DNA of 64,000 bases from Pseudanabaena cinerea FACHB-1277 (GTDB lineage: Bacteria > Cyanobacteriota > Cyanobacteriia > Pseudanabaenales > Pseudanabaenaceae). The notes below the pieces were generated by a model that was not told the origin of the DNA, searched no databases, and saw nothing but the letters and a program-made list of their open reading frames with translations. Positions 4,064 to 64,000 of this stretch are shown here, piece by piece. The stretch spans positions 1 to 64,000 of the forward strand of contig NZ_JACJPY010000015.1 of NCBI RefSeq assembly GCF_014696345.1, given 5' to 3'. The position numbers and the translations under genes were made by a program. Every line of letters starts with the position of its first letter. Positions within the stretch are counted from its first letter, which is position 1.

Positions 4064-6712
4064 ATGAACAATGCCATGCCCCGCCGTGAGAGTTTAGTCA
4101 GTCGCTTGATCTTTGGACTGACGACCAGCACTTCCTTACTAGCGACTGCGACCCTAATTTTGCTGCTGCATATTCAACAGGGGACACCTGAGCTAGAGGC
4201 TTTTACGACATGGTTAGCAGTGGTGATCCTTTCTGTGGGGTTGGGGTCTAGCCTATTTGTGGCTATTTCAATTATTCGGAGTATTCAGCCGCCTTTGCTG
4301 GAATTGTCGGAAACGGCGGCGGAGCTATCTACGGGCAATCTATCGGCGCGATCGCAGCTAAATCGGACGGATGAAATTGGCGAATTTGCCAAAGCTTTTA
4401 ACGAGATGGCGGCGCATTTCGAGCTTAAGACAGCCACCCTTGAAGCTAGGGATATCCAGTTTGCGCTGCAAGCGATCGATCGGGTACTGGTTAATACCAC
4501 CGATCAATATAAATTAATTAAAGCAAGTCTAGAAGAAATTTGTAAGCTTACGGGCGCACAGTTGGGCAGTATTTATTTATGGGAAAGCTCTAGTTCGCGT
4601 CCCGATGGTTGTTTGGTATTGGCGGCGGAATGGGGCTATAAGACCAGTCAGGCGCTGACCGAGATTAATTTGGGGGAAGGAATTATTGGGCAGGCGGGGC
4701 AGTTGGCGGAGGCGATCATTTGGGAGGGCGATCGCCTCAAAGGGCAAACCCTTGTATATCGCACTCCCGTTGGCGATTTGTTGCCCCAAAGTCTGTCTGC
4801 CTATCCTTTGCTGTTGCGCCAGAGCCTAGTGGGGGTTTTGTTTTTAGGTAGTTTGATCCCATTGGGCGATCGCAGTCGGAATATTTTGCAATCCATCGGT
4901 CGCCGCCTTGCCACGGCCATCAGCAACGCCCAGAGCATTGACACGATCGCCCGCCAGCGCGAAGAGCTAACTACGGTTTTTGAACAGCTTGCCGATGGGG
5001 TTCTGCTCAGCGATCCCGCAGGTAGGATTCTGAAAATTAATTCCGCAGGTCGTAAAATCCTCAGTGCTAATAGCAACAGCGCCAGCACCATTAATAGTAA
5101 TGTGCCAGCATCTCCTGTGATTGCTAAGTCGATGGAAGAGATTGTGAAGCAATTTGACATTAGGCATCAGGATGGGGAACCCGTTGATTTGGCAAATTTG
5201 GTCGTATTTCGGGCGATGTCTACGGGGGAAGTGGTGGAGGATCAAGTGGTATTGCGGCAGTCTGATGGCAAGGAAATTATTCTCAGCACGAAGGCGGCTC
5301 CCCTCGTGGGTACGGAGTCAGAACTAATTGGCAGTGTGATGATTTTGCGCGATGTGACCGAACAGCGCTATCGCGACAAGATGATGCAGGAAACCAATAA
5401 AATCATGATCGAGCAGCAAAAGCGCATGAGCATTTTGCAACGCTTGACTAATTTGATCAACCAGCAGTTGCAGGATCTAGATGTGTTGTTGGAGTCAGTG
5501 GTGGAGGCAACCTGCGACGCGATTATGTGGACAGAAATTTGTGTGTTGCTGCTCTATGATGCTAAGGAAAATCGCCTCACCCTTTCTGCCACCAATGGAC
5601 TACCTGAAGACTTTCCATTGCAAAAATCCTTTGATCTTGATGTTCCCAATTTGATTACACAGGTATTTAAAGAAGGTATTCCTGTGGAAATTAAATCTGG
5701 GGAATCACAGCTTTTAGATGATCTCATGGTCAAAAGCGCTCTTTGTGTGCCAATTGAGTCAAACCGTTCGGGGCGTTTGGGGGTATTGGCGATTGGGCAT
5801 AGTCGTTTGGAGAAGGCGAGTTCCCGTGAAGATTTGAATCTATTGGCTTCCTTTGGCATTCAGGCAGCGATCGCGATCGGCAATGCTCAGTTAATCAATC
5901 AAATTGAAGCTCAAAATGCCCAACTACTAGAGGCAACTCAATTAAAGAGCCAATTTTTGGCAAATATGAGTCATGAGCTAAGAACGCCCATGAATGCGAT
6001 TATTGGCTTTTCGCAGGTGTTGCTGCGTCAGCGCCGTGAGGTACTTTCCCCTAGCCAAATTGACATGGTGGAACGGATACTTCGCAATGGCAAAAATCTT
6101 TTGGATTTGATTAACGATATTCTCGATCTTTCCAAAATTGAAGCGGGCAAGATGGAAGCACATCCTGAGTTCTTTAACATAGATGAGCTAATTCGTCATA
6201 CTTATGAAGGACTTCAGCCCCTAGCCACCATTAAAGCTTTAAACTTTACCTTCCAAAATCATATTGGGGTCTGTACGATTTATCACGATCCAACGCGGCT
6301 GAAGCAGGTTGTCACTAATTTAGTTTCTAACGCCATTAAATTTACTGATGCAGGGGAGGTTTGCATCGAACTGAAATATGTAAGTCCCAATAATTCTGGG
6401 GCGATCGCCAAAGAACCAACTGAAGTGACTGAAGCTATGGATATAGCTGCTTTGCCGCAGGTTGCGAAGTCTAATATTCTCATATCGGTGCGAGATACGG
6501 GCATCGGCATTGAGCCAGAGTTTCAGCGCACTATTTTCGAGCAGTTTCGGCAGGTGGATCAGTCTTCGACCCGCAAGCATGGCGGTACGGGCTTGGGCTT
6601 GGCGATTACGGAGCAGTTGGTGTTAATGATGGGTGGCACAATTTGCGTGGAGAGTGGGGTTAATCAGGGGTCGATTTTTACAGTGGAGTTGCCACCTAAA
6701 TTGCAGGAGTGA
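4064..6712 (+). CDS. Membrane sensor histidine kinase, HAMP-GAF-PAS-GAF-HisKA-HATPase
   Basis: This 882-residue kinase has two hydrophobic segments (about 13-35 and 45-70) with only a very short loop between them, so sensing is probably cytoplasmic. A HAMP linker follows at about 70-125, GAF at about 145-290, PAS at about 300-440 and a second GAF at about 465-610. The phospho-acceptor is His637 in MSHELRTPMNAIIGF. The ATPase shows the N box (VTNLVSNAIKF), G1 (DTGIGI), F (EQFRQVDQSS) and G2 (GGTGLGLAI) boxes. No receiver or regulator gene is adjacent, so the partner is unknown. GAF domains may bind bilins or cyclic nucleotides; I do not see a clear conserved chromophore Cys. Confidence 0.9.
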   Translation: MNNAMPRRESLVSRLIFGLTTSTSLLATATLILLLHIQQGTPELEAFTTWLAVVILSVGLGSSLFVAISIIRSIQPPLLELSETAAELSTGNLSARSQLNRTDEIGEFAKAFNEMAAHFELKTATLEARDIQFALQAIDRVLVNTTDQYKLIKASLEEICKLTGAQLGSIYLWESSSSRPDGCLVLAAEWGYKTSQALTEINLGEGIIGQAGQLAEAIIWEGDRLKGQTLVYRTPVGDLLPQSLSAYPLLLRQSLVGVLFLGSLIPLGDRSRNILQSIGRRLATAISNAQSIDTIARQREELTTVFEQLADGVLLSDPAGRILKINSAGRKILSANSNSASTINSNVPASPVIAKSMEEIVKQFDIRHQDGEPVDLANLVVFRAMSTGEVVEDQVVLRQSDGKEIILSTKAAPLVGTESELIGSVMILRDVTEQRYRDKMMQETNKIMIEQQKRMSILQRLTNLINQQLQDLDVLLESVVEATCDAIMWTEICVLLLYDAKENRLTLSATNGLPEDFPLQKSFDLDVPNLITQVFKEGIPVEIKSGESQLLDDLMVKSALCVPIESNRSGRLGVLAIGHSRLEKASSREDLNLLASFGIQAAIAIGNAQLINQIEAQNAQLLEATQLKSQFLANMSHELRTPMNAIIGFSQVLLRQRREVLSPSQIDMVERILRNGKNLLDLINDILDLSKIEAGKMEAHPEFFNIDELIRHTYEGLQPLATIKALNFTFQNHIGVCTIYHDPTRLKQVVTNLVSNAIKFTDAGEVCIELKYVSPNNSGAIAKEPTEVTEAMDIAALPQVAKSNILISVRDTGIGIEPEFQRTIFEQFRQVDQSSTRKHGGTGLGLAITEQLVLMMGGTICVESGVNQGSIFTVELPPKLQE

Positions 6713-56367: not shown

Positions 56368-56658
56368 ATGATTGAAATTCGGGAAACTGAAATCTATTTG
56401 CGGTGGTTTAAATCACTGCGCGATCGGGAAGCTAGGGCTCGTATCGACATTCGTATTCGGCGGTTGTCTATGGGTAATCCTGGTGACGTGAAACCGATAG
56501 GAAAAGGTGTATCAGAACTTCGCATTGACTATGGTGCAGGATATCGAGTGTATTTCATCCAACGAGGGGATACGTTAGTTATCTTGCTTGCAGGCGGAGA
56601 TAAACGTACACAAGATCGGGATATCAAAACAGCTTTAGACTTATCACAAAACCTATAG
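56368..56658 (+). CDS. HigB/RelE-superfamily toxin (addiction module killer protein)
   Basis: This 96-residue basic protein has WFKSLRDREARARIDIRIRRLSMGNPGDVKPIGKGVSELRIDYGAGYRVYFIQRGDTLVILLAGGDKRTQDRDI. This is the TIGR02683-type HigB-like killer protein pattern with the RID-GaGYRVYF core and the C-terminal GGdK-tQ-rDI. It probably cleaves mRNA at ribosomes. Toxin-first order, as usual for HigBA. The antitoxin follows after eight bases. Confidence 0.92.
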   Translation: MIEIRETEIYLRWFKSLRDREARARIDIRIRRLSMGNPGDVKPIGKGVSELRIDYGAGYRVYFIQRGDTLVILLAGGDKRTQDRDIKTALDLSQNL

Positions 56659-56666
56659 GAGATCTT

Positions 56667-56954
56667 ATGAACAAAGTTTCAACCCATCTTTGGGATGTAG
56701 CAGAACATCTGGAAACCAAAGAAGATATGGCAGCTTATCTTGAAGCAGCTCTTGAAGACGGCGATCCTAATCTAGTGGTAGCAGCCTTAGGGGATATTGC
56801 TCGATCTAAGGGAATGACAAATATTGCGCGTGAAACAGGATTAGGACGAGAAAGCCTCTATAAATCTTTGTCACTCGAAGGTAATCCAGAATTTGCCACT
56901 GTTTTAAGAGTTATACAATCACTTGGTATCCGTTTACGAGCTACGCCCGTATAG
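56667..56954 (+). CDS. HigA-like antitoxin (XRE helix-turn-helix)
   Basis: The 95 residues hold an N-terminal helical part (LWDVAEHLETKEDMAAYLEAALEDGDPNLVVAALGDIARSKG) and an HTH (MTNIARETGLGRESLYKSLSLEGNPEFATVLRVIQSLGIRL). This fits TIGR02684 addiction-module antidotes. GGAG lies seven bases before the start. The stop is two bases from the R'' box of the first attC site. Confidence 0.92.
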   Translation: MNKVSTHLWDVAEHLETKEDMAAYLEAALEDGDPNLVVAALGDIARSKGMTNIARETGLGRESLYKSLSLEGNPEFATVLRVIQSLGIRLRATPV

Positions 56955-56956
56955 GA

Positions 56957-57042
56957 GTCTAACACTGCGTTGGAGCCGACCTCTCAAAAGTGATCTGTAA
57001 AAGTCTAAACTTGGCGGCGGCGGCTCAACTTTACCGTTATGC
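56957..57042 (+). other. attC site 1
   Basis: This 86-bp site has R'' GTCTAAC (56957-56963), L'' arm TTGGAGCCG, L' arm CGGCTCAA and R' GTTATGC (57036-57042). The arms pair except for the extra G in TTG-G-AGCCG, the extrahelical base that sets strand choice. R' fits the next site's R'' (GCATAAC). Confidence 0.88.
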
Positions 57043-57063
57043 GTCAAGCGTAAGGTGAGTAAA

Positions 57064-57558
57064 ATGAGTTGCGTTGCGAAGTTTAGAGCAGTTTTTGGAA
57101 TTTTTATTCTGTCCAGTATTTATGGCGTTGCTCAGCCCTTGAGAGCGGAAGTTCCCAACCCTGGTGTTCCTGATTTCATCTATCAAACTGAAGGACAACC
57201 AGTCATTGCTACTTTTTTTGGTCGAGGAGAATCTTACGCACTCGGTTGTATGCGATTGAGAAATCTGTGGAGCAGTGTCCCAACGAAATTACTTAGTTCT
57301 GATTCTTTTAGGGGCATACTTGACTCATATCCGATTGTTGCCGATATCCCCTGTAATGGGAACGTAAGAGCTTATGCACCGAAAGGTGAGCCTGGTGCAT
57401 TAGTCTTTAAAAATCGAGATGGACAACTTTGCCGACACTACGTCAATAGTACTGACTGGTTTGTCGCCACAAGAGCAGGAGGAGAAATCCCAATTACAGC
57501 CGAGCAATTCAGACAAGATGTACCCTGTCGTGGCTCTGATTTTAGAGTGAGCCGCTAG
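57064..57558 (+). CDS. Exported protein of unknown function (cassette cargo)
   Basis: The protein is 164 residues from the ATG at 57064, preceded by AAGGTG; a GTG nine bases upstream lacks this spacing. A signal peptide (hydrophobic about 10-24, cleavage near LRA-EV) leads to a mature part with four cysteines (ALGCMRLRN, DIPCNGN, QLCRHYV, DVPCRGS), which may form two disulfides. No family is recognised. It starts 22 bases after attC1, as a cassette gene does. A toxin-antitoxin pair follows 44 bases downstream. Confidence 0.65.
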   Translation: MSCVAKFRAVFGIFILSSIYGVAQPLRAEVPNPGVPDFIYQTEGQPVIATFFGRGESYALGCMRLRNLWSSVPTKLLSSDSFRGILDSYPIVADIPCNGNVRAYAPKGEPGALVFKNRDGQLCRHYVNSTDWFVATRAGGEIPITAEQFRQDVPCRGSDFRVSR

Positions 57559-57602
57559 TTCTCAAGCGGATTAGGCTAAGATTATGGGCAGGAGGTCTAA
57601 TT

Positions 57603-57827
57603 ATGAAAACTACTGCCCAAGAAATCTACGCTCAAGTAGTTCATGTTCTCTCGCCAACAGAGCGACTACGATTAGCAACGCTCATTCTTAACGAGCTTGT
57701 TGGGCAACAGCTAACATCTGTCGATCAAAGCGATACCTGGACTGACGAAGATCAGATTGATCTTGTGAATTTTTCACTACGGTATGCGGCTACAACTTTC
57801 TCTGATGTCGAGGGGGTTGAATTGTGA
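57603..57827 (+). CDS. Antitoxin of a PemK/MazF-type pair
   Basis: The 74-residue acidic protein begins MKTTAQEIYAQVVHVLSPTERLRLATLILNELV, a helical pattern common in short cyanobacterial antitoxins. It ends in an acidic, disordered toxin-binding tail (WTDEDQIDLVNFSLRYAATTFSDVEGVEL). AGGAGG is nine bases upstream. It overlaps the toxin gene by four bases (GTGA). Identity as antitoxin rests on this context. Confidence 0.75.
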   Translation: MKTTAQEIYAQVVHVLSPTERLRLATLILNELVGQQLTSVDQSDTWTDEDQIDLVNFSLRYAATTFSDVEGVEL

Positions 57828-58177
57828 CGCTTTGTCCCGGAGATTTAGTTACAGTTGATTTTCCTGGTGTAACAGGAGTTAAACGCCGTCCGGCTGTAGT
57901 CTTGTCATCAGATACCTACCATTCACTTCGACCAGACGTGATAGTTGGACTTATTACAACTCAGACCAAGGTACTAGGAGTTACAGATTATGTGCTTCAG
58001 GACTGGGCATCGGCAGGATTACGATCTGCTTCAATGTTTCGTTCCTTTATCGTGACTCTGCCACCATCTGCGAATTTAGTTGTAATTGGGCATTTATCGG
58101 AGCGTGATTGGCAAGGGGTTAAGGCTTGTGTCAAAATATCGCTTTCAACTTTAGATAACACAACACCGCAAGAGTAA
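57824..58177 (+). CDS. PemK/MazF-like mRNA interferase toxin
   Basis: This 117-residue toxin has the PemK/MazF fold start PGDLVTVDFPGVTGVKRRPAVVLSSDTYH. DVIVGLITTQ, LRSASMFRSFIVTLP and HLSERDWQGVKACV follow. The loop with the conserved R-PAVVLS and the later S-x-x-R-F fits sequence-specific RNA cleavage. It starts with GTG. It ends 27 bases before attC2. Confidence 0.88.
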   Translation: MTLCPGDLVTVDFPGVTGVKRRPAVVLSSDTYHSLRPDVIVGLITTQTKVLGVTDYVLQDWASAGLRSASMFRSFIVTLPPSANLVVIGHLSERDWQGVKACVKISLSTLDNTTPQE

Positions 58178-58204
58178 GTACTGCCACTCTTTATGCCCAA
58201 TGCT

Positions 58205-58293
58205 GCATAACAATCCCGTTGCACACCGACCGGATAGAGTCTCTTCGTTGAGTCCGAGAAGTTACTAGCGGCGGGTGAACGGGGTCGTTAGAC
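58205..58293 (+). other. attC site 2
   Basis: This 89-bp site has R'' GCATAAC (58205-58211), the exact reverse complement of R' of attC1. Left arm CCCGTTGCACACCG and right arm CGGGTGAACGGGG pair with an extra G after CCCGTT. R' is GTTAGAC (58287-58293). Arm sequences differ from the other four sites, but structure is the same. Confidence 0.85.
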
Positions 58294-58401
58294 TGCCAGT
58301 TTATTTATCAAAGTGCAATTGAGAACTTCGAGAAATTGTTGATTGACAATCAGTTTGGTAGTGACTGGATAGTTCGCGTCGGCAAAAATATTTGATTTAC
58401 T

Positions 58402-59115
58402 ATGAAATCACAAATCAAGTTCCTCAAGTTTCTTCTCATTGGTTTTCTTCTCAGTATCATCTTAATGTTTGCGGTTCCTAGTGTTGCAGAAACATTTTTA
58501 AATACTGCATACATCCGTCCTCGAACTCTTGTTTTTGCCAAGGGCAATTTTTGGGTGTATGCTCACAACAACTTCAGTCCATCGCAGCAAACAATGATTA
58601 AATCAGCATCGAATAAGCTGCACGAACAGATGAATAATCCAAGTCAAAGATCAAAGCTTATAGACTGCGGTTTGCGGAGAACTGTTAGAGCCAAGCCTAG
58701 CAAACAAGTCGTTGATAATCAGCTAAAACAAGTGTTTGTTAACCCTGCTAGTGGCAACCGTCCAATTAAAGCAACTGTTGCCTATATGTGGGGAGAGAAA
58801 GAAGTCGTTGGAAGAGGCACACTTGGATCTGGCGAGTTTCCAGAGAAAGGCGATCTTTTGAGGGTCGCATTCAATTCAGATTATTTCGGTGATAGCTCTC
58901 AATTTTCTCTAAGAAATGATGTTGACTATTGGTCTGCTACGTTATTGCATGAAATACTTCACAACTTAGGCTATGAACACCCACAACCCAAGGGAGACTT
59001 TATCACAGAGTTCGATTTGTGTGTTAACTTCAATGGCTCTATTCCTCAGAGGTTCGGCTTGAACGGCGGCACAGAGGACAATATCGATGATGTGTATTTC
59101 AGAATGAGAAAATAG
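58402..59115 (+). CDS. Secreted metzincin-like zinc metalloprotease (cassette cargo)
   Basis: The protein has 237 residues with a signal peptide or anchor (hydrophobic about 9-28, cleavage near VAE). At about 192-202 it has HEILHNLGYEH, the full HExxHxxGxxH zinc motif of metzincins, within LLHEILHNLGYEHPQPKGDF. The N-terminal half (FSPSQQTMIKSASNKLHEQMN, VNPASGNRPIKATVAYMWGE) is a mixed alpha/beta region. A Met-turn cannot be clearly located. No close family is recognised. It is the first gene of its cassette, 109 bases after attC2. A repeat hairpin follows. Confidence 0.7.
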   Translation: MKSQIKFLKFLLIGFLLSIILMFAVPSVAETFLNTAYIRPRTLVFAKGNFWVYAHNNFSPSQQTMIKSASNKLHEQMNNPSQRSKLIDCGLRRTVRAKPSKQVVDNQLKQVFVNPASGNRPIKATVAYMWGEKEVVGRGTLGSGEFPEKGDLLRVAFNSDYFGDSSQFSLRNDVDYWSATLLHEILHNLGYEHPQPKGDFITEFDLCVNFNGSIPQRFGLNGGTEDNIDDVYFRMRK

Positions 59116-59119
59116 CTAG

Positions 59120-59155
59120 TAGGGTGCATTTATGAAATTTAATGCACCTCATTTT
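59120..59155 (+). repeat. Dispersed hairpin repeat, diverged copy
   Basis: TAGGGTGCATTTATGAAATT then TAATGCACCTCATTTTTG resembles the GTAGGGTGCGTTA family with GC changed to AT. GGTGCATT pairs with AATGCACC. It probably terminates the protease gene. Confidence 0.7.
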
Positions 59156-59258
59156 TGTTCGTATGGACAGTTATTTGAACACAATTACAATTTTTTAGTT
59201 AGACTAGAGTAAATTTTTCCATTACTCAACTGAACTGATTTTCAATCTAGGAGCAGCC

Positions 59259-59471
59259 ATGCTAGACACAGCAACTCTTGAGAGACGCTTGACAAACCTT
59301 GAACAGGTTGTTTTTGACCTCCAGCATAAATTTGACAGTAAGCCTGTCTCTGACAATTGGTTAGATAGACTTATTGGTTCAATTTCTGATGATGCAGCTT
59401 TTCTTGAAGCTCTAGAATACGGACGCGCATTTCGGCAGTCTGACAAACCTATTGATGAGATTGGCCAGTAA
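59259..59471 (+). CDS. Antitoxin of a VapC-like PIN pair
   Basis: The 70 residues start MLDTATLERRLTNLEQVVFDLQHKF, a short coiled coil. NWLDRLIGSISDDAAFLEALEYGRAFRQSDKP follows, a stretch common in cyanobacterial antitoxins before PIN toxins. AGGAG lies eight bases upstream. The toxin starts two bases after its stop. Confidence 0.78.
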   Translation: MLDTATLERRLTNLEQVVFDLQHKFDSKPVSDNWLDRLIGSISDDAAFLEALEYGRAFRQSDKPIDEIGQ

Positions 59472-59473
59472 AC

Positions 59474-59902
59474 GTGAAATATTTGTTCGATACCGACCAC
59501 ATCAGTTTTCTGCAACGCCGATCTAGTTTAGAGTTTAGCCGATTAACTTTGAGGATGTCCCAACATTCGATCGCAGACTTTGGCTTATCGGTTATTAGCT
59601 TCCATGAGCAAATAATTGGCGCTCACAGCTTCATCAATCGCGCTCAGAACAATACTGATTTGGCTCGTGGATATGCGCTGTTGTCAGAAACTCTTAACGG
59701 TTTCGCAAAAGCTCCAGTTTTACCATTTGATGCTGAAGCAATTGAAATATTTGATGAGATGAGGAGTCAGAAAGTTCGTGTAGCTACGATGGACTTGAGA
59801 ATTGCAGCGATCGCCATTTCCAACAATTTAGTTTTACTTACCCGAAATACTGGCGATTTTAGCAAAGTTCCAAACTTAATAATCGAAGATTGGACAGTGT
59901 AG
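59474..59902 (+). CDS. VapC-like PIN-domain ribonuclease toxin
   Basis: This 142-residue toxin starts with GTG: KYLFDTDHISFLQR with the first acidic residues (Asp6, Asp8). The central part has SVISFHEQIIGA with Glu, and the end has RVATMDLRIAAIAISNNLVLLTRNTGDFSKVPNLIIEDW with Asp residues completing the Mg site. It should cleave RNA. It ends eight bases before attC3. Confidence 0.92.
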   Translation: MKYLFDTDHISFLQRRSSLEFSRLTLRMSQHSIADFGLSVISFHEQIIGAHSFINRAQNNTDLARGYALLSETLNGFAKAPVLPFDAEAIEIFDEMRSQKVRVATMDLRIAAIAISNNLVLLTRNTGDFSKVPNLIIEDWTV

Positions 59903-59910
59903 CGCAGAAG

Positions 59911-59995
59911 GTCTAACACTGCGTTGGAGCGGACGGATGAAAAGTCCTAATGTAATGAAAAACTCATCTGCCGCCGCTCAACTTTACCGTTAGAC
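59911..59995 (+). other. attC site 3
   Basis: This 85-bp site has R'' GTCTAAC (59911-59917), complementary to R' of attC2. TTGGAGCGG pairs with CCGCTCAA with the extra G. R' is GTTAGAC (59989-59995). Here R'' and R' pair with each other as well, so the two neighbouring cassettes carry the same box type. Confidence 0.88.
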
Positions 59996-60040
59996 TGTCA
60001 CGTTGAAATCACGAAACGTAATAATCACCAAAATAGTAAG

Positions 60041-60544
60041 ATGTCAAACTATCAATTCGTATCCATTACATGTGTTACCCCCTCAACGGGTGTAAGTGGT
60101 ATTGCAACAGCTGTTATTACGACAATTTCTTCCACATTAGGAGGAACGATTGCTGGATCTTTGGCTGCTCTAACTGGCCCCGGTGCTGTTTTAGCGTCTG
60201 TGGGTGGATCTGTCGCTGGCACTTTAGTCGGTAAAGGCGCAGGAAGCTTACTAGAATCGATTGGTCAGGCATTTCCAGATAATTTGTACATCGAAGTCGA
60301 TGGCAAAAAGGCTTGGCCTAGTGGCAAATATCAGAACATTAATGCTGGCGACAAAATTACGCCACCTATTCAAGGGGCATTCGATCATCCCACTAAGGTA
60401 ACGCTTAAAGAATGAGATGTATTTGGTGATGATAATCTAGGCGAATTTATCATTAACCCGATGCAAAAAGGTAATGGGCTTGCGTATCTTGTTGCTAATC
60501 CTAAAGAGGGGGATGTTTACGAAGTTGTGCTGAATATCTCATAG
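60041..60544 (+). pseudogene. Glycine-rich protein gene with internal TGA (cassette cargo)
   Basis: The first 124 codons read MSNYQFVSITCVTP, a glycine/alanine-rich hydrophobic region (GTIAGSLAALTGPGAVLASVG and repeats, glycine-zipper-like) and IYVDGKKAWPSG-like IEVDGKKAWPSGKYQNINAGD. A TGA at 60413-60415 stops the frame. The same frame continues DVFGDDNLGEFIINPMQ, GLAYLVANPKEGDVYEVVLNIS to TAG at 60542. The conserved look of the second half shows that the ancestor was about 166 residues. Membrane insertion is suggested by the glycine zipper. Function is unknown. Confidence 0.72.
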
Positions 60545-60601
60545 TGCGATCGCCGATCTTGTAGGGTGCGTTAATGAAATGTAACGCACCTTGTTTTTGT
60601 T
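60544..60601 (+). repeat. Dispersed repeat copy
   Basis: It is nearly identical to 56241-56298 (GTGCGATCGCCGATCTTGTA then GGGTGCGTTAATGAAATG). It begins in the stop codon of the preceding gene. A fragment of the gene that follows or precedes the other copy (MAVRQ) lies 80 bases downstream. Confidence 0.85.
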
Positions 60602-60681
60602 TTAATCAAAGCAATCTATTCAGAGCAGTTCTGGTCAGTTATAATACCAGATAAGGCAATGACCGAGGAAAATTCATAATC

Positions 60682-60750
60682 ATGGCAGTGCGTCAATCAC
60701 GCTATGGCAGAGAAGAATTTGCCCAACGAGTCAATGATTTTTCGGTTTAG
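60682..60750 (+). pseudogene. N-terminal remnant of the MAVRQ small-protein family
   Basis: ATG at 60682 starts MAVRQSRYGREEFAQRVNDF then SV-stop, 22 codons, clearly related to the start of the 98-residue protein at 55975 (MAVRQRRYSKEELARRG). The rest is missing. It is a truncated paralogue trapped in cassette D. Confidence 0.75.
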
Positions 60751-60775
60751 TGCTAACATTCTGGAGACATAAACT

Positions 60776-61129
60776 ATGCAACTAGAAGATTACTTTATCT
60801 TTCTTGCAGTCAATGACATTCGCATAAAAAATACGCGAATTGGTATTGAAACAGTTTTGTATGACTACATTTACCGCAGTCGAACACCAGAAGAAATCGC
60901 TAGAACTTACCTATCATTAAGCTTAGAGCAGGTTTATGCCACTGTTCTCTACTATCTCCACAACAAACAAGCGATCAGTGAGTACCTCACTAATTGGCTA
61001 GAATGGGGACACAAAATGAGAGAAGAGCAAAAGCTTAATTCACCGCCAATTTCCGAAAAATTGCGTCAACTTCGCTCTGAACGACTAACATCAGGAAAAT
61101 CCTATGCAAATCAAGTATTTGATGGATGA
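60776..61129 (+). CDS. DUF433 antitoxin
   Basis: The 117 residues show the DUF433 pattern: DIRIKNTRIGIETVLYDYIYRSRTPEEIARTYLSLSLEQVYATVLYYLHN, a winged HTH used by antitoxins of DUF5615 toxins. A basic tail follows. It overlaps the start of the toxin frame by 26 bases. As that toxin is broken, this protein has nothing to neutralise and may only be a remnant. Confidence 0.85.
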   Translation: MQLEDYFIFLAVNDIRIKNTRIGIETVLYDYIYRSRTPEEIARTYLSLSLEQVYATVLYYLHNKQAISEYLTNWLEWGHKMREEQKLNSPPISEKLRQLRSERLTSGKSYANQVFDG

Positions 61130-61466
61130 AAATCTCCCTCCAATTTATCAAATACAGCTACGCCGCAAAGAACCTGATTTAGTAGTCTGGGCAATTGGCG
61201 ATCCCAACACACCGCCAAAAGGCACTTTAGATCCAGATATCCTGATTTAGTGTGAAAAATACGACTTTATTCTTGTAACAAATAATCGTAGCTCTATGCC
61301 CATCCATCTAATCGATCATCTTGCTGAAGGGCAGCACATTCCTGGAATCTTCCAAATCAATCCCAGTATGAGCTTGGGTGAAACTATTGAAGAATTAGTA
61401 TTAGCTGCTCTTGCTTATCTGGATGGCGAGTATAGCGATCGGATTTCATATTTGCCATTGCCATAA
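61104..61466 (+). pseudogene. DUF5615 PIN-like toxin with internal TAG
   Basis: The frame begins MQIKYLMDENLPPIYQIQL with the acidic DEN motif, then GDPNTPPKGTLDPDILI. A TAG at 61248-61250 sits where relatives have Trp (ILI-x-CEKYDFILVTNNR), consistent with a TGG to TAG change. The frame continues SMPIHLIDHLAEGQHIPGIF to TAA at 61464. The toxin is inactivated. It ends 30 bases before attC4. Confidence 0.85.
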
Positions 61467-61496
61467 ATTGCTCGCATTAAGTTGCTAGTGAAAGAG

Positions 61497-61586
61497 GTCT
61501 AACACTGCGTTGGATCCGACCAAGTAGAGATAGATAATCTATAAAAGCCGAAGCTTGTCTACGGCGGCTCAACTAGACCGTTATGC
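61497..61586 (+). other. attC site 4
   Basis: This 90-bp site has R'' GTCTAAC (61497-61503), the complement of R' of attC3. TTGGATCCG faces CGGCTCAA; the extra G is kept and one mismatch (T for G) weakens the arm. R' is GTTATGC (61580-61586). Confidence 0.85.
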
Positions 61587-61617
61587 TACAAGTCTAGGTA
61601 ACGGAGTGTTAAAGCTG

Positions 61618-62049
61618 ATGCCCAATGATATTGTGAAATATGAACCAGATGATGCGGGGAACATTGTTACTCATGCTCTACAACAAATTGCTGAAAATTC
61701 AGAAATAGTTTTATCTATCAAGGCAGTTAGTAATTGGGTTACTGGTTTTACTTGTTATCTTAGCAACGAAGCTGGATTGTATCGCTCTCAAGAAGTTGAT
61801 TTCAGAGAAACGTTCAAAGATTTTAATCAGTATATTCGTCTATTCAATGCAGGATCTGATTTTCGCGCAAGATCTACCGTAAATTTTTGTAGACGTGTTC
61901 TTCATATGGAAGATTCAAAAGCTAAACGCAATTTTATTATTCAAATTTTTAGCAGCTTTCGCTGCGACATGGGTAACTCGATAGAAAGATTTTCAGAGAT
62001 TGAAGGGCAACTCGTTGATGGATTTCTTGAAAACCCTTTTGGACGCTAA
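61618..62049 (+). CDS. Hypothetical protein (cassette cargo)
   Basis: The protein is 143 residues from the ATG at 61618, with GGAG eleven bases upstream. A longer frame starts inside attC4 and is rejected. It is helical with an acidic start (MPNDIVKYEPDDAGNIVTHALQ). A central part has LSNEAGLYRSQEVDF and a C-terminal region with RRVLHMEDSKAKRNFIIQIFSSF. No domain is recognised. It starts 32 bases after attC4 and lies 32 bases ahead of the DUF433 gene. Confidence 0.6.
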   Translation: MPNDIVKYEPDDAGNIVTHALQQIAENSEIVLSIKAVSNWVTGFTCYLSNEAGLYRSQEVDFRETFKDFNQYIRLFNAGSDFRARSTVNFCRRVLHMEDSKAKRNFIIQIFSSFRCDMGNSIERFSEIEGQLVDGFLENPFGR

Positions 62050-62081
62050 AATAAAGTTAATGTTTAGGATTTATTGCTGCT

Positions 62082-62411
62082 ATGCTTACCGCATCTCGAA
62101 CAGTGTCAGTCCCTTTGTCCACTAATGCAGATGGTGTGATTTTGGTTGGTAACACTCGTGTAACCATTGATACAGTTGTTGGCAATTACAAGCAAGGACT
62201 GTCACCTGAAGAAATCGTATTTCGCTACTCATCTCTTGATCTATCAGATGTTTATAGCACCATTGCTTTTTATCTAAGCTATCAGACAGAAGTTGAAGAA
62301 TACCTAAAAAAACGTCAAATTACGGCTCAAGCCATTCGAGAAAAAAATCAACATCGGTTTAACTCTCAAAGTTTGCGTGATCGCCTTCTTGCAAGACAGG
62401 CAGCTAAATAG
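62082..62411 (+). CDS. DUF433 antitoxin, intact pair
   Basis: The 109 residues include ILVGNTRVTIDTVVGNYKQGLSPEEIVFRYSSLDLSDVYSTIAFYLSYQTEVEEYL, the DUF433 HTH. A basic tail (KKRQITAQAIREKNQHRFNSQSLRDRLLARQ) follows. It precedes a DUF5615 toxin by two bases. The pair is a second version of the broken pair in the previous cassette, but the two differ clearly in sequence. Confidence 0.9.
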   Translation: MLTASRTVSVPLSTNADGVILVGNTRVTIDTVVGNYKQGLSPEEIVFRYSSLDLSDVYSTIAFYLSYQTEVEEYLKKRQITAQAIREKNQHRFNSQSLRDRLLARQAAK

Positions 62412-62413
62412 CA

Positions 62414-62764
62414 ATGATCAAACTACTTGCAGATGAAAATTTCGATAATACAATCGTCAGAGGACTATTACGGCGCAATCCTAAAATCGATATTGTCCGA
62501 GTACAAGACATGGGACTATCGGGCATAGACGATCCATCAATTCTGGCATGGGCAGCCAAGCAAAATAGAGTATTGCTAACCCATGATGTAGCAACTATTA
62601 CTCGTTATGCTTATGAAAGAATAGAACAAAATTTACCTATGAATGGTGTTGTAGAAGTTCCCATGGATGCAAGTATTGGAAAAGCAATAGAAGATATCTT
62701 TCTGTTAATAGAATGTAGTTCAGAGGAAGAGTTGCAAGGACAAATTCACTACTTGCCATTTTAG
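62414..62764 (+). CDS. DUF5615 PIN-like toxin
   Basis: The 116 residues start MIKLLADENFDNTIVRGLLRRNP with the acidic D-E-N motif. DIVRVQDMGLSGIDDPSILAWAAKQNRVLLTHDVATI follows with the Asp of THD, the PIN-like catalytic set. This is the toxin of DUF433/DUF5615 (VapBC45-like) systems. It ends 17 bases before attC5. Confidence 0.9.
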   Translation: MIKLLADENFDNTIVRGLLRRNPKIDIVRVQDMGLSGIDDPSILAWAAKQNRVLLTHDVATITRYAYERIEQNLPMNGVVEVPMDASIGKAIEDIFLLIECSSEEELQGQIHYLPF

Positions 62765-62781
62765 GTAAATCTCTTAAAGCC

Positions 62782-62868
62782 GCATAACACTGCGTTGGAG
62801 CCGACCGTTCAAAAAGTGACCTTTAACAGCTAAAGTTTGACTGGGGCGGCTCAACTAGACCTTTAGAC
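62782..62868 (+). other. attC site 5, R' box mutated
   Basis: This 87-bp site has R'' GCATAAC (62782-62788), complementary to R' of attC4. TTGGAGCCG pairs with CGGCTCAA with the extra G. The right box reads TTTAGAC (62862-62868) in place of GTTAGAC: the G next to the crossover point is changed to T. The cassette junction after it may no longer recombine. Confidence 0.83.
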
Positions 62869-62889
62869 CGACAAGCAAAAAGAATTATC

Positions 62890-63141
62890 ATGACTGAACC
62901 AACGCCGCAACCTTTATGTCCTTATTGCAAAGAATCCATACAGCCAAAGGCTACAGTTTGTCCACATTGCAAAAAAACTATTTTTTCGACCGACCCTGGA
63001 GCAAATGCAGTAATCTATCTCATCTCCTTTGGTGTAATGTTCGCCGTACTATGGACAGGCATAAATTGGTTTGCAAAGGTTCAAACTGAGCAAAACCTCC
63101 GTGATGCACAGCAACAAGTTGATAAGATGCTCAAGCGATAA
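62890..63141 (+). CDS. Zinc-ribbon membrane protein
   Basis: The protein has 83 residues. A double Cys pair (LCPYCKESIQPKATVCPHCKK) forms a zinc ribbon. One transmembrane helix (about 42-62) and a polar helix (QTEQNLRDAQQQVDKML) follow. It starts 22 bases after attC5, as the first gene of the next cassette. The role is unknown; related small proteins are common. Confidence 0.7.
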   Translation: MTEPTPQPLCPYCKESIQPKATVCPHCKKTIFSTDPGANAVIYLISFGVMFAVLWTGINWFAKVQTEQNLRDAQQQVDKMLKR

Positions 63142-63245: not shown

Positions 63246-63803
63246 ATGCGCTCAAATGTCGATCCTCAGAAAATCGAACAACTCATGGAAGCATTAGGTA
63301 AAGAATCTCGTAGTTCGGGTTGTATTTATTTTACAGGTGGTGCTAGTGCTTTACTTATTGGTTGGCGCACTTCTACTGTGGATATAGATATTCGTCTAGA
63401 TCCAGAACCCTTAGGGGTTTTTCAAGCGATCTCCAATCTCAAACAAGAATTGAACATCAATATTGAACTTGCCTCCCCACAAGACTTCTTGCCACCTCTT
63501 CCAGGATGGCGTGATAGAAGCGTGTTCATTAGCAAACGAGGTCAAGTTTCGTTTTATCATTATGATTTTACAGCCCAAGCTCTTTCCAAACTATCCAGAG
63601 GATTTGACCGCGATATTAAAGATATTGAAGCTATGTACGATCAGAAATTATTCTCTCTGAGTAAGCTGCGCGATTGCTTTGATGCGATTTTACCTGAAAT
63701 AATTCGGTTCCCTTCTCTTAATTCTGATCTACTTAGAAGCAGAGTCGAGAACTTCATCGAGCGTTTTGAAGATCAAGGGAGGAGAAATAATGAGTCTTCA
63801 TGA
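63246..63803 (+). CDS. DUF6036-like nucleotidyltransferase-fold protein
   Basis: The 185 residues have YFTGGASALLIGWRTSTVDIDIRLD, the G-G-(S)-x-A/L-x8-T-x-D-I-D active-site pattern of minimal nucleotidyltransferases (MNT, AbiEii-like) with Asp about 48 and 50. LPGWRDRSVFISKRGQVSFYHYDFTAQALSKLSRGFDRDIKDIEAM follows, as in DUF6036. It overlaps the next frame by 14 bases. Such pairs are often toxin-antitoxin or defence units. Here the partner is not HEPN-like in the visible part. Confidence 0.72.
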   Translation: MRSNVDPQKIEQLMEALGKESRSSGCIYFTGGASALLIGWRTSTVDIDIRLDPEPLGVFQAISNLKQELNINIELASPQDFLPPLPGWRDRSVFISKRGQVSFYHYDFTAQALSKLSRGFDRDIKDIEAMYDQKLFSLSKLRDCFDAILPEIIRFPSLNSDLLRSRVENFIERFEDQGRRNNESS

Positions 63804-64000
63804 TTTGCCAGGAGCCGAGATAATATTACCTGGATTAAGCGACCTTCGCAATGGTAAGTCCAATACAATTGGTGCATTACTAGTTGCGATCGCAGCAACG
63901 CGCTTAACCGAAGCAGGTTTAGATATTCAAAAGCATCATCTATCCCCAGAGCCAGAGCTAAATCTGTATGCTTGTCTCCAAGACGAACGAGAGGATGCTT
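63790..64000 (+). CDS. Partner of the nucleotidyltransferase-like protein, cut by window edge
   Basis: ATG at 63790 opens a frame that runs to the window end: MSLHDLPGAEIILPGLSDLRNG, then ALLVAIAATRLTEAGLDIQ and NLYACLQDEREDA. AGGAG lies six to ten bases upstream. It overlaps the preceding gene, a sign of coupled translation. At least 70 residues are present, helical in the second half. I do not recognise the family with certainty. Confidence 0.7.
   Translation, partial: MSLHDLPGAEIILPGLSDLRNGKSNTIGALLVAIAATRLTEAGLDIQKHHLSPEPELNLYACLQDEREDA

Follow-up and report, generated by a model that had tools for sequence, protein, structure and literature searches.

The window, by which we mean the whole stretch of 64,000 nucleotides analysed here (G000:C57:1-64000), ends within an integron gene cassette that has an attC site on both sides and carries a nucleotidyltransferase gene (NT) followed by a small, overlapping partner gene. 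The ATG of the partner lies at 63790 and the window end cuts the gene; as the contig reaches 64341, 341 bases beyond the window, the whole partner could be read up to its stop at 64128 (on L002, G000:C57:60001-64341). The cassette holds three genes and comprises the following features:

62780-62869, minus strand: attC5, which opens the NT cassette (R'' GCATAAC, R' TTTAGAC; 96.5 bits)
62890-63141, plus strand: open reading frame (ORF) of 83 aa with a zinc-ribbon and a membrane segment, the first gene of the cassette
63246-63803, plus strand: NT, a DUF6036 (PF19502) nucleotidyltransferase of 185 aa and the proposed toxin (from Pfam match, alignment and predicted fold)
63790-63803, plus strand: overlap of NT and the partner gene, 14 bases
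63790-64000 in the window, running on to contig position 64128, plus strand: partner gene, 112 codons, the proposed antitoxin
contig 64075-64164 (L002:4075-4164): attC that closes the NT cassette (R'' GTCTAAC, R' TTTAGAC; 95.5 bits)

The boundaries of the cassette were derived from the attC sites. A covariance model (R1), built from six aligned attC sites of the window and L002, recovers these six building sites at 64-96 bits and scores at most 10.7 bits elsewhere in the two stretches. Read by eye, each R'' is complementary to the R' with which its own cassette begins at five of five junctions, pairing GTTATGC with GCATAAC and GTTAGAC with GTCTAAC; the last junction differs at the crossover base. 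From this pairing and the attC sites it follows that the cassette spans the attC at 62780-62869 to that at 64075-64164. The preliminary description, which had only the window, predicted a next attC with R'' GTCTAAC beyond position 64000, and the closing site was found there. In a larger set of 27 attC sites (26 distinct) from several genomes, whose alignment was fitted to the structure, the stems contain 44 double changes, compared with 12.5 in shuffles (0 of 500 reached this number). In the attC alignment, likewise fitted to the structure, stem pairing amounts to 90% and falls to 43% or less when the partner column is slid by one. The folding z-scores of single attC strands (-0.3 to -4.2) are weak alone, and the case for the sites rests on covariation.

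Both attC sites that flank the NT cassette carry TTTAGAC in place of GTTAGAC at R' (62862-62869; L002 near 4157-4164). We take the changed base to be the crossover position, and among the 26 distinct sites only these two show the change. Judging from their sequence, the two flanking attC sites may have lost activity, or may recombine solely with one another. The zinc-ribbon ORF was considered as a member of the module and rejected, as no match to it lies beside the pair in any other locus searched. A promoter scan of the cassette was uninformative, with four promoters found and 3.4 in shuffles. Close to the contig end, an open frame runs on the minus strand (L002:4199-4339). By eye, it presumably resembles an insertion-sequence transposase, and this transposase-like frame may be the reason why the assembly breaks there.

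Upstream of the NT cassette, the array continues as follows (attC1 to attC4 from alignment and covariance model R1):

56368-56954, plus strand: RelE/ParE-type toxin (TIGR02683) and addiction-module antidote (TIGR02684), both over cut-off
56955-57043, minus strand: attC1
57603-58177, plus strand: PemK/MazF-like gene (57824-58177), preceded by an ORF of 74 aa
58203-58294, minus strand: attC2
59259-59902, plus strand: VapC-like PIN gene (59474-59902), preceded by an ORF of 70 aa
59909-59996, minus strand: attC3
60776-61129, plus strand: DUF433 ORF, in the next cassette upstream of the neighbouring one; it is followed by a DUF5615-like frame that, judged by eye, seems interrupted
61495-61587, minus strand: attC4
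62082-62764, plus strand: DUF433 (62082-62411) and PIN-like DUF5615 (62414-62764), in the cassette neighbouring that of NT

Toxin-antitoxin-type genes are thus present in all five other cassettes (window 56368-62764), and the array resembles a collection of addiction modules. DUF433/COG2442-PIN is a predicted toxin-antitoxin family, in which DUF433 is the predicted antitoxin of PIN toxins and which is frequent in cyanobacteria, according to passages of PMC2701414. For Vibrio, passages of PMC11023631 describe toxin-antitoxin cassettes that have their own promoters and stabilise the array, and stabilisation of arrays by the toxin-antitoxin cassettes of chromosomal integrons is treated in passages of PMC11023631 and PMC8618304. 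The pair described here resembles the cassettes of the Vibrio superintegron in being bounded by attC sites and lying among other toxin-antitoxin-type cassettes. It differs in that its array is cyanobacterial, that its genome yielded no intact integrase gene and that its toxin family is not named in the passages of PMC11023631 and PMC8618304 concerned.

The search for an intact integron integrase gene covered the G000 draft genome (179 contigs) and found none. Integrase fragments are present on contig C114, the best of which scores 59 bits where the cut-off is 265. They lie at C114:93946-94306 and 96726-96817, contain stops and frame changes, and have one lone attC at a distance of about 2.4 kb. 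These fragments are likely the remnant of the genome's integron platform. Further single attC sites lie on C90, C130 and, weakly, C35. A genome of the same genus (G001) carries a full-length integron integrase over the curated cut-off (G001:C1:4696011-4696949), and full-length integrases were found in 12 of the 29 relatives searched and in 0 of 14 control genomes; integrons look common in this genus. In G001, the intact integrase lies 21 kb from the genome's own NT/partner pair. The stretch covered there contains one good attC directly before NT and, some 2.3 kb ahead of the integrase, a weaker site (E 2.2e-4), and with a single good site the G001 array is not intact.

The NT reading frame translates into a protein that carries GGASALLIGWRTSTVDIDIR (185 aa, 63246-63803). 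It matches DUF6036 (PF19502) with an E-value of 1.8e-10 and 41.3 bits, over the curated Pfam cut-off of 23.6, and the same model, run with a limit of E 10, matches all 37 aligned NT members (1.9e-11 for the best). The nucleotidyltransferase active-site pattern, GG...D-x-D followed by a third acidic residue, is present in NT across the 37 sequences. In the numbering of the window's protein, the active site comprises T44-V-D46-I-D48, E74, K115, R122-D123 and D126, where E74 is, as we infer from the motif, the third acidic residue. G31, G32, T44, D46, D48, E74, K115, R118, R122, D123 and D126 are, among others, invariant in 37 of 37 sequences. The gene at 63246 had been called nucleotidyltransferase-like in the preliminary description, and both the Pfam match and the active-site pattern bear this out. 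With a limit of E 10, Pfam gave no AbiEii (DUF1814) match for any of the 37 members, although most matches above 0.1 are removed by the HMMER filters. A sequence search of the PDB gave no convincing solved relative of NT; its best match, at E 0.015, was to a helical segment in an unrelated protein. Further DUF6036 matches from cyanobacteria (L201-L205) are different nucleotidyltransferases that lack the partner, and were excluded. In the open-licence literature searched, no paper mentions 'DUF6036' or 'PF19502'.

About 95 of the partner's 112 codons are family sequence, and the remainder is read into the closing attC (contig 64075-64164); relatives of the partner are about 95 aa long. The 14-base overlap with NT, reported earlier and located at 63790-63803, is peculiar to the window's copy; in relatives, the overlap is mostly 1 or 4 bases long, or the two genes are separated by 2 bases. 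The partner is more variable than NT, with a mean column identity of 65% (50 sequences) against 84% (37 sequences). Nonetheless, the 50 aligned partners share 29 invariant columns, including P7, R38, E54-P55-E56, Y60, Y71, Y74-N75 and S83-F84-C85. Pfam gave nothing better than E 0.15 for the window's partner and E 0.013 for the 50 members, among which there was no HEPN match, no AbiEi match, and no match to a DNA-binding or other known antitoxin family. The preliminary description had noted a lack of HEPN or AbiEii features in the first 70 residues of the partner. The R-x4-6-H motif is not conserved in the 50 aligned partners, and neither is any histidine. NCBIfam did not match the window's partner, PADLOC gave a weak match to a JetC fragment (E 0.008), and PADLOC returned no match worth counting for either NT or the partner. 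The AlphaFold2 model of a relative of the partner (L034) has four helices (pLDDT 85, pTM 0.77). Compared with the PDB, it reaches at best E 3.9 in Foldseek and Z 3.8 in VIA-align, which supports neither a new fold nor a known one, and no PDB chain is a convincing relative by sequence. The partner is no recognisable housekeeping enzyme; the preliminary description had named a housekeeping partner as an outcome that would count against its proposal of a toxin-antitoxin or defence pair.

For NT, the predicted model (pLDDT 87, pTM 0.82) comes closest, among PDB entries, to MenT1 of the MenAT1 complex, with a modest Foldseek E-value of 0.012 and a probability of 1.00. VIA-align gives a Z of 8.9 for MenT1 (rmsd 4.0, 157 aligned), with ANT(2'')-Ia (4xje, Z 8.0) within one Z unit, the AbiEi chain 6y8q at rank 4 (Z 7.9), MenT3 and MenT4 at Z 6.8-7.0 and LnuA (4fo1) at Z 6.8. 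MenT/AbiEii-type toxins occupy much of this list, and in the Foldseek list MntA chains rank low (E 0.9). As the Z of ANT(2'')-Ia nearly ties that of MenT1, the fold alone is not decisive; passages of PMC10435456 in fact describe a superposition of MenT1 on ANT2 by its authors. According to passages of the same paper, the toxicity of MenT1 requires D41, K137 and D152, and phosphorylation of MenT1 at T39 is driven by MenA1 (passages of PMC10435456 and PMC11375011). T44-x-D46 of NT would correspond by motif to T39/D41 of MenT1. The spacing between the lysine and the aspartate is 15 residues in MenT1 compared with 8 or 11 in NT, with the residues compared by motif alone.

Among known systems, MenAT1 of Mycobacterium tuberculosis is similar in that it is a two-gene pair with a nucleotidyltransferase of about 190 aa, whose fold is the nearest match of the NT model, an S/T-x-D-x-D active site and a short antitoxin other than AbiEi. 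However, NT belongs to PF19502 and is unmatched by the AbiEii/DUF1814 Pfam model, its partner (about 95 aa, four helices) has no convincing match to PDB chains in sequence or fold, and the pair was found in Cyanobacteria only, in the scan of GTDB r220 for close relatives. AbiE, MenAT3 and MenAT4, in which a DUF1814 toxin is paired with an AbiEi antitoxin, are matched by the NT model in their toxin fold (MenT3 and MenT4 as above), but NT has 185 aa instead of about 290 aa and its partner is not AbiEi by Pfam. In MNT-HEPN (MntA-HepT), the gene of a small nucleotidyltransferase likewise adjoins that of a small helical protein, whereas the loss pattern described below has the opposite polarity and the partner lacks R-x4-6-H.

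A pattern scan of GTDB r220 (one genome per species), which detects close relatives only, found the NT/partner pair at 77 loci, all of them cyanobacterial by title. Plasmid matches are confined to four records of Leptolyngbya boryana that carry the pair, one of which annotates a DUF6036 family nucleotidyltransferase followed by a hypothetical protein. No NT relative was found among 50,697 phage records, and of the 69 stretches of viral contigs that fit the partner peptide pattern, none was confirmed. Among the matches listed from the open-licence literature, none names the DUF6036/partner pair. With a second model (R2), an attC was detected on the partner stop or within 150 bases of it at 8 different loci of 84 given (L035, L080, L042 with its second copy L006, L011, L009, L053, L075 and L045), two of which, L080 and L009, have an attC in front as well; the set of 84 contains a few duplicates, and some of the sites found had helped to build R2. 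Most loci have no attC close behind the partner by R1 or R2, suggesting that the pair lives outside arrays too, or that the attC has decayed or is too divergent for the model. In the NT tree, the window's copy falls among those of other families (support 99/97), as expected of a mobile gene, and most Pseudanabaena copies lie in a separate clade of ten (support 100/98). The tmRNA tag of the window's genome is cyanobacterial in type, and the partner of G005, a genome of the same genus, is identical in its printed sequence to the partner of Pseudanabaena sp. CAN_BIN31 (L057), which makes Pseudanabaena the probable genus.

Which of the two genes depends on the other was addressed by counting intact copies in two partly overlapping draws of 388 cyanobacterial genomes each, most of them drafts, with genomes in both draws counted once. 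NT was scored as intact if it extended from residue 5 or earlier through 164 or later, and the partner if it extended from 2 or earlier through 89 or later. Short fragments below this coverage rule and second pieces of broken genes were excluded, G030 and G388, in which the stop falls at the end of the gene, were counted as intact, and partial or broken partners without NT (G081, G035, G068, G011, G346, G349, G114 and others) were counted for neither side. Directly behind 60 of 61 intact NT genes lies an intact partner, and behind the remaining one, on a draft contig (G555), a frameshifted partner. Conversely, 35 of 95 intact partners occur without an intact NT and 60 with it; the 35 become 32 after dropping three ambiguous cases, i.e. 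an NT with an in-frame insertion (G262) and two contig ends (G519, G586). At least 17 different NT lesions lie beside intact partners, comprising tails, heads, stops, frameshifts and internal deletions. Under a null model in which NT is struck twice as often owing to its length, p is 0.007 for 17 of 18 and 9e-6 for 35 of 36, uncorrected for kinship. The intact NT thus depends one-way on the partner, and the partner can stand alone. In nine pairings of a solo with a paired partner, as well as in others, dN/dS ranges from 0.06 to 0.20 (pairwise, the paired branch included), which indicates that the solo partners sampled are not decaying but are kept for function.

Two genomes show further arrangements. 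In G269, NT is broken and the partner is absent. G629 has a solo partner and, in addition, a truncated NT that is fused to foreign sequence and has no partner (L229, G629:C21:57000-60000). Here, NT ends at about residue 119 and continues into about 160 foreign residues, with the loss of the R-D--D helix; from its sequence, this could possibly be a natural inactive fusion. A truncated NT without a partner fits the notion that NT is harmless once broken.

An intact NT that is essentially never alone, and a partner that can be, form the pattern of a toxin-antitoxin pair, whose polarity is that of MenAT and opposite to that of MNT-HEPN. Together with the MenT1-like fold and the toxin-antitoxin-type genes in the other cassettes, this one-way dependence leads us to consider it probable that the pair is a toxin-antitoxin module on an integron cassette, in which NT is the toxin and the overlapping four-helix partner its antitoxin. 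The preliminary description had proposed a toxin-antitoxin or phage-defence pair carried by the next cassette. The cassette was found and the toxin-antitoxin part is favoured by the loss pattern, the fold and the neighbours, whereas the phage-defence part found no support, neither gene having a PADLOC match of note. The strong conservation of NT (84% mean column identity) counts against our reading, as it is unusual for a fast-evolving toxin. The modest Foldseek E-value with ANT(2'')-Ia so close in Z, the negative AbiEii/DUF1814 result for NT, the lack of a DNA-binding or other known antitoxin family in the partner and the differing lysine-to-aspartate spacing weigh on the same side.

In the toxin-antitoxin module that we favour, the partner would probably be produced by translation coupled to that of NT. 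By analogy with MenT1, NT may add nucleotides to RNA, most likely to tRNA 3' ends, until the partner blocks it by binding. Perhaps the partner would also push T44 of NT into self-phosphorylation, as MenA1 does to T39 of MenT1. Loss of the cassette would leave the toxin behind, and the pair could in this way stabilise the array or protect against competing elements. The constraint on solo partners could instead mean that the partner has a task of its own. A bolder version, which we put forward tentatively and hold to be doubtful in its entirety, is a new class of nucleotidyltransferase toxin-antitoxin system, confined to Cyanobacteria and spread by integron cassettes. Here, a DUF6036 toxin would extend or cap tRNA 3' ends, a four-helix antitoxin of new sequence would turn the toxin onto its own T44, and the solo antitoxins, about a third of the intact copies, would provide immunity against incoming toxin cassettes.

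Could the polarity be the reverse, as in MNT-HEPN, with the partner as the toxin and NT as an antitoxin that modifies it, for example at Y71 or Y74? The predicted four-helix partner with its invariant Y60, Y71 and Y74, the position of NT as the first gene of the operon and the MntA chains low in the Foldseek list would fit such an arrangement. Yet 35 of 95 intact partners have no intact NT, and those sampled are under constraint, which is hard to reconcile with a toxin. The 50 members also show neither a conserved R-x4-6-H nor a HEPN Pfam match, and no HEPN fold match was obtained for the partner, though this absence is not decisive. We regard reversed polarity as very improbable. Less so, but still unlikely, is that NT is not a toxin at all and instead an enzyme with an obligate small subunit, i.e. 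an antibiotic- or metabolite-modifying nucleotidyltransferase of the ANT(2'')-Ia or LnuA type or a tRNA/RNA repair enzyme. Integrons carry antibiotic nucleotidyltransferases, ANT(2'')-Ia and LnuA rank high in the fold list, and NT is highly conserved. However, it would have to be explained why the small subunit of such an enzyme is kept, and constrained, without it; plasmid matches are limited to the four L. boryana records, and the neighbouring cassettes hold toxin-antitoxin-type genes.

An AbiE-type phage-defence pair, in which the NT toxin would be freed on infection and cause abortive infection, seems quite unlikely to us, if not as remote as reversed polarity. AbiE is described in PMC3985639 as a phage-abortive type IV system, and the rank of the AbiEi chain and the many MenT/AbiEii-type toxins in the VIA-align list are in line with it. 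Against this stand the PADLOC results for both genes, the Pfam result that sets the partner apart from AbiEi, and the phage records and viral contigs, from which no relative of NT and of the partner, respectively, emerged.

If the toxin-antitoxin module that we favour proves true, a Pfam family of unknown function would become a toxin family with a testable target, and the partner would be an antitoxin family that is absent from all libraries scanned. One toxin fold would then be controlled by still more unrelated antitoxins, for which MenA1 and MenA3 are precedents. Most of what is known about cassette biology comes from Vibrio and clinical integrons, and the locus provides a cyanobacterial cassette array that is filled with toxin-antitoxin-type genes. 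With many solo partners at hand, a role of the partner in immunity or anti-addiction would be directly testable.
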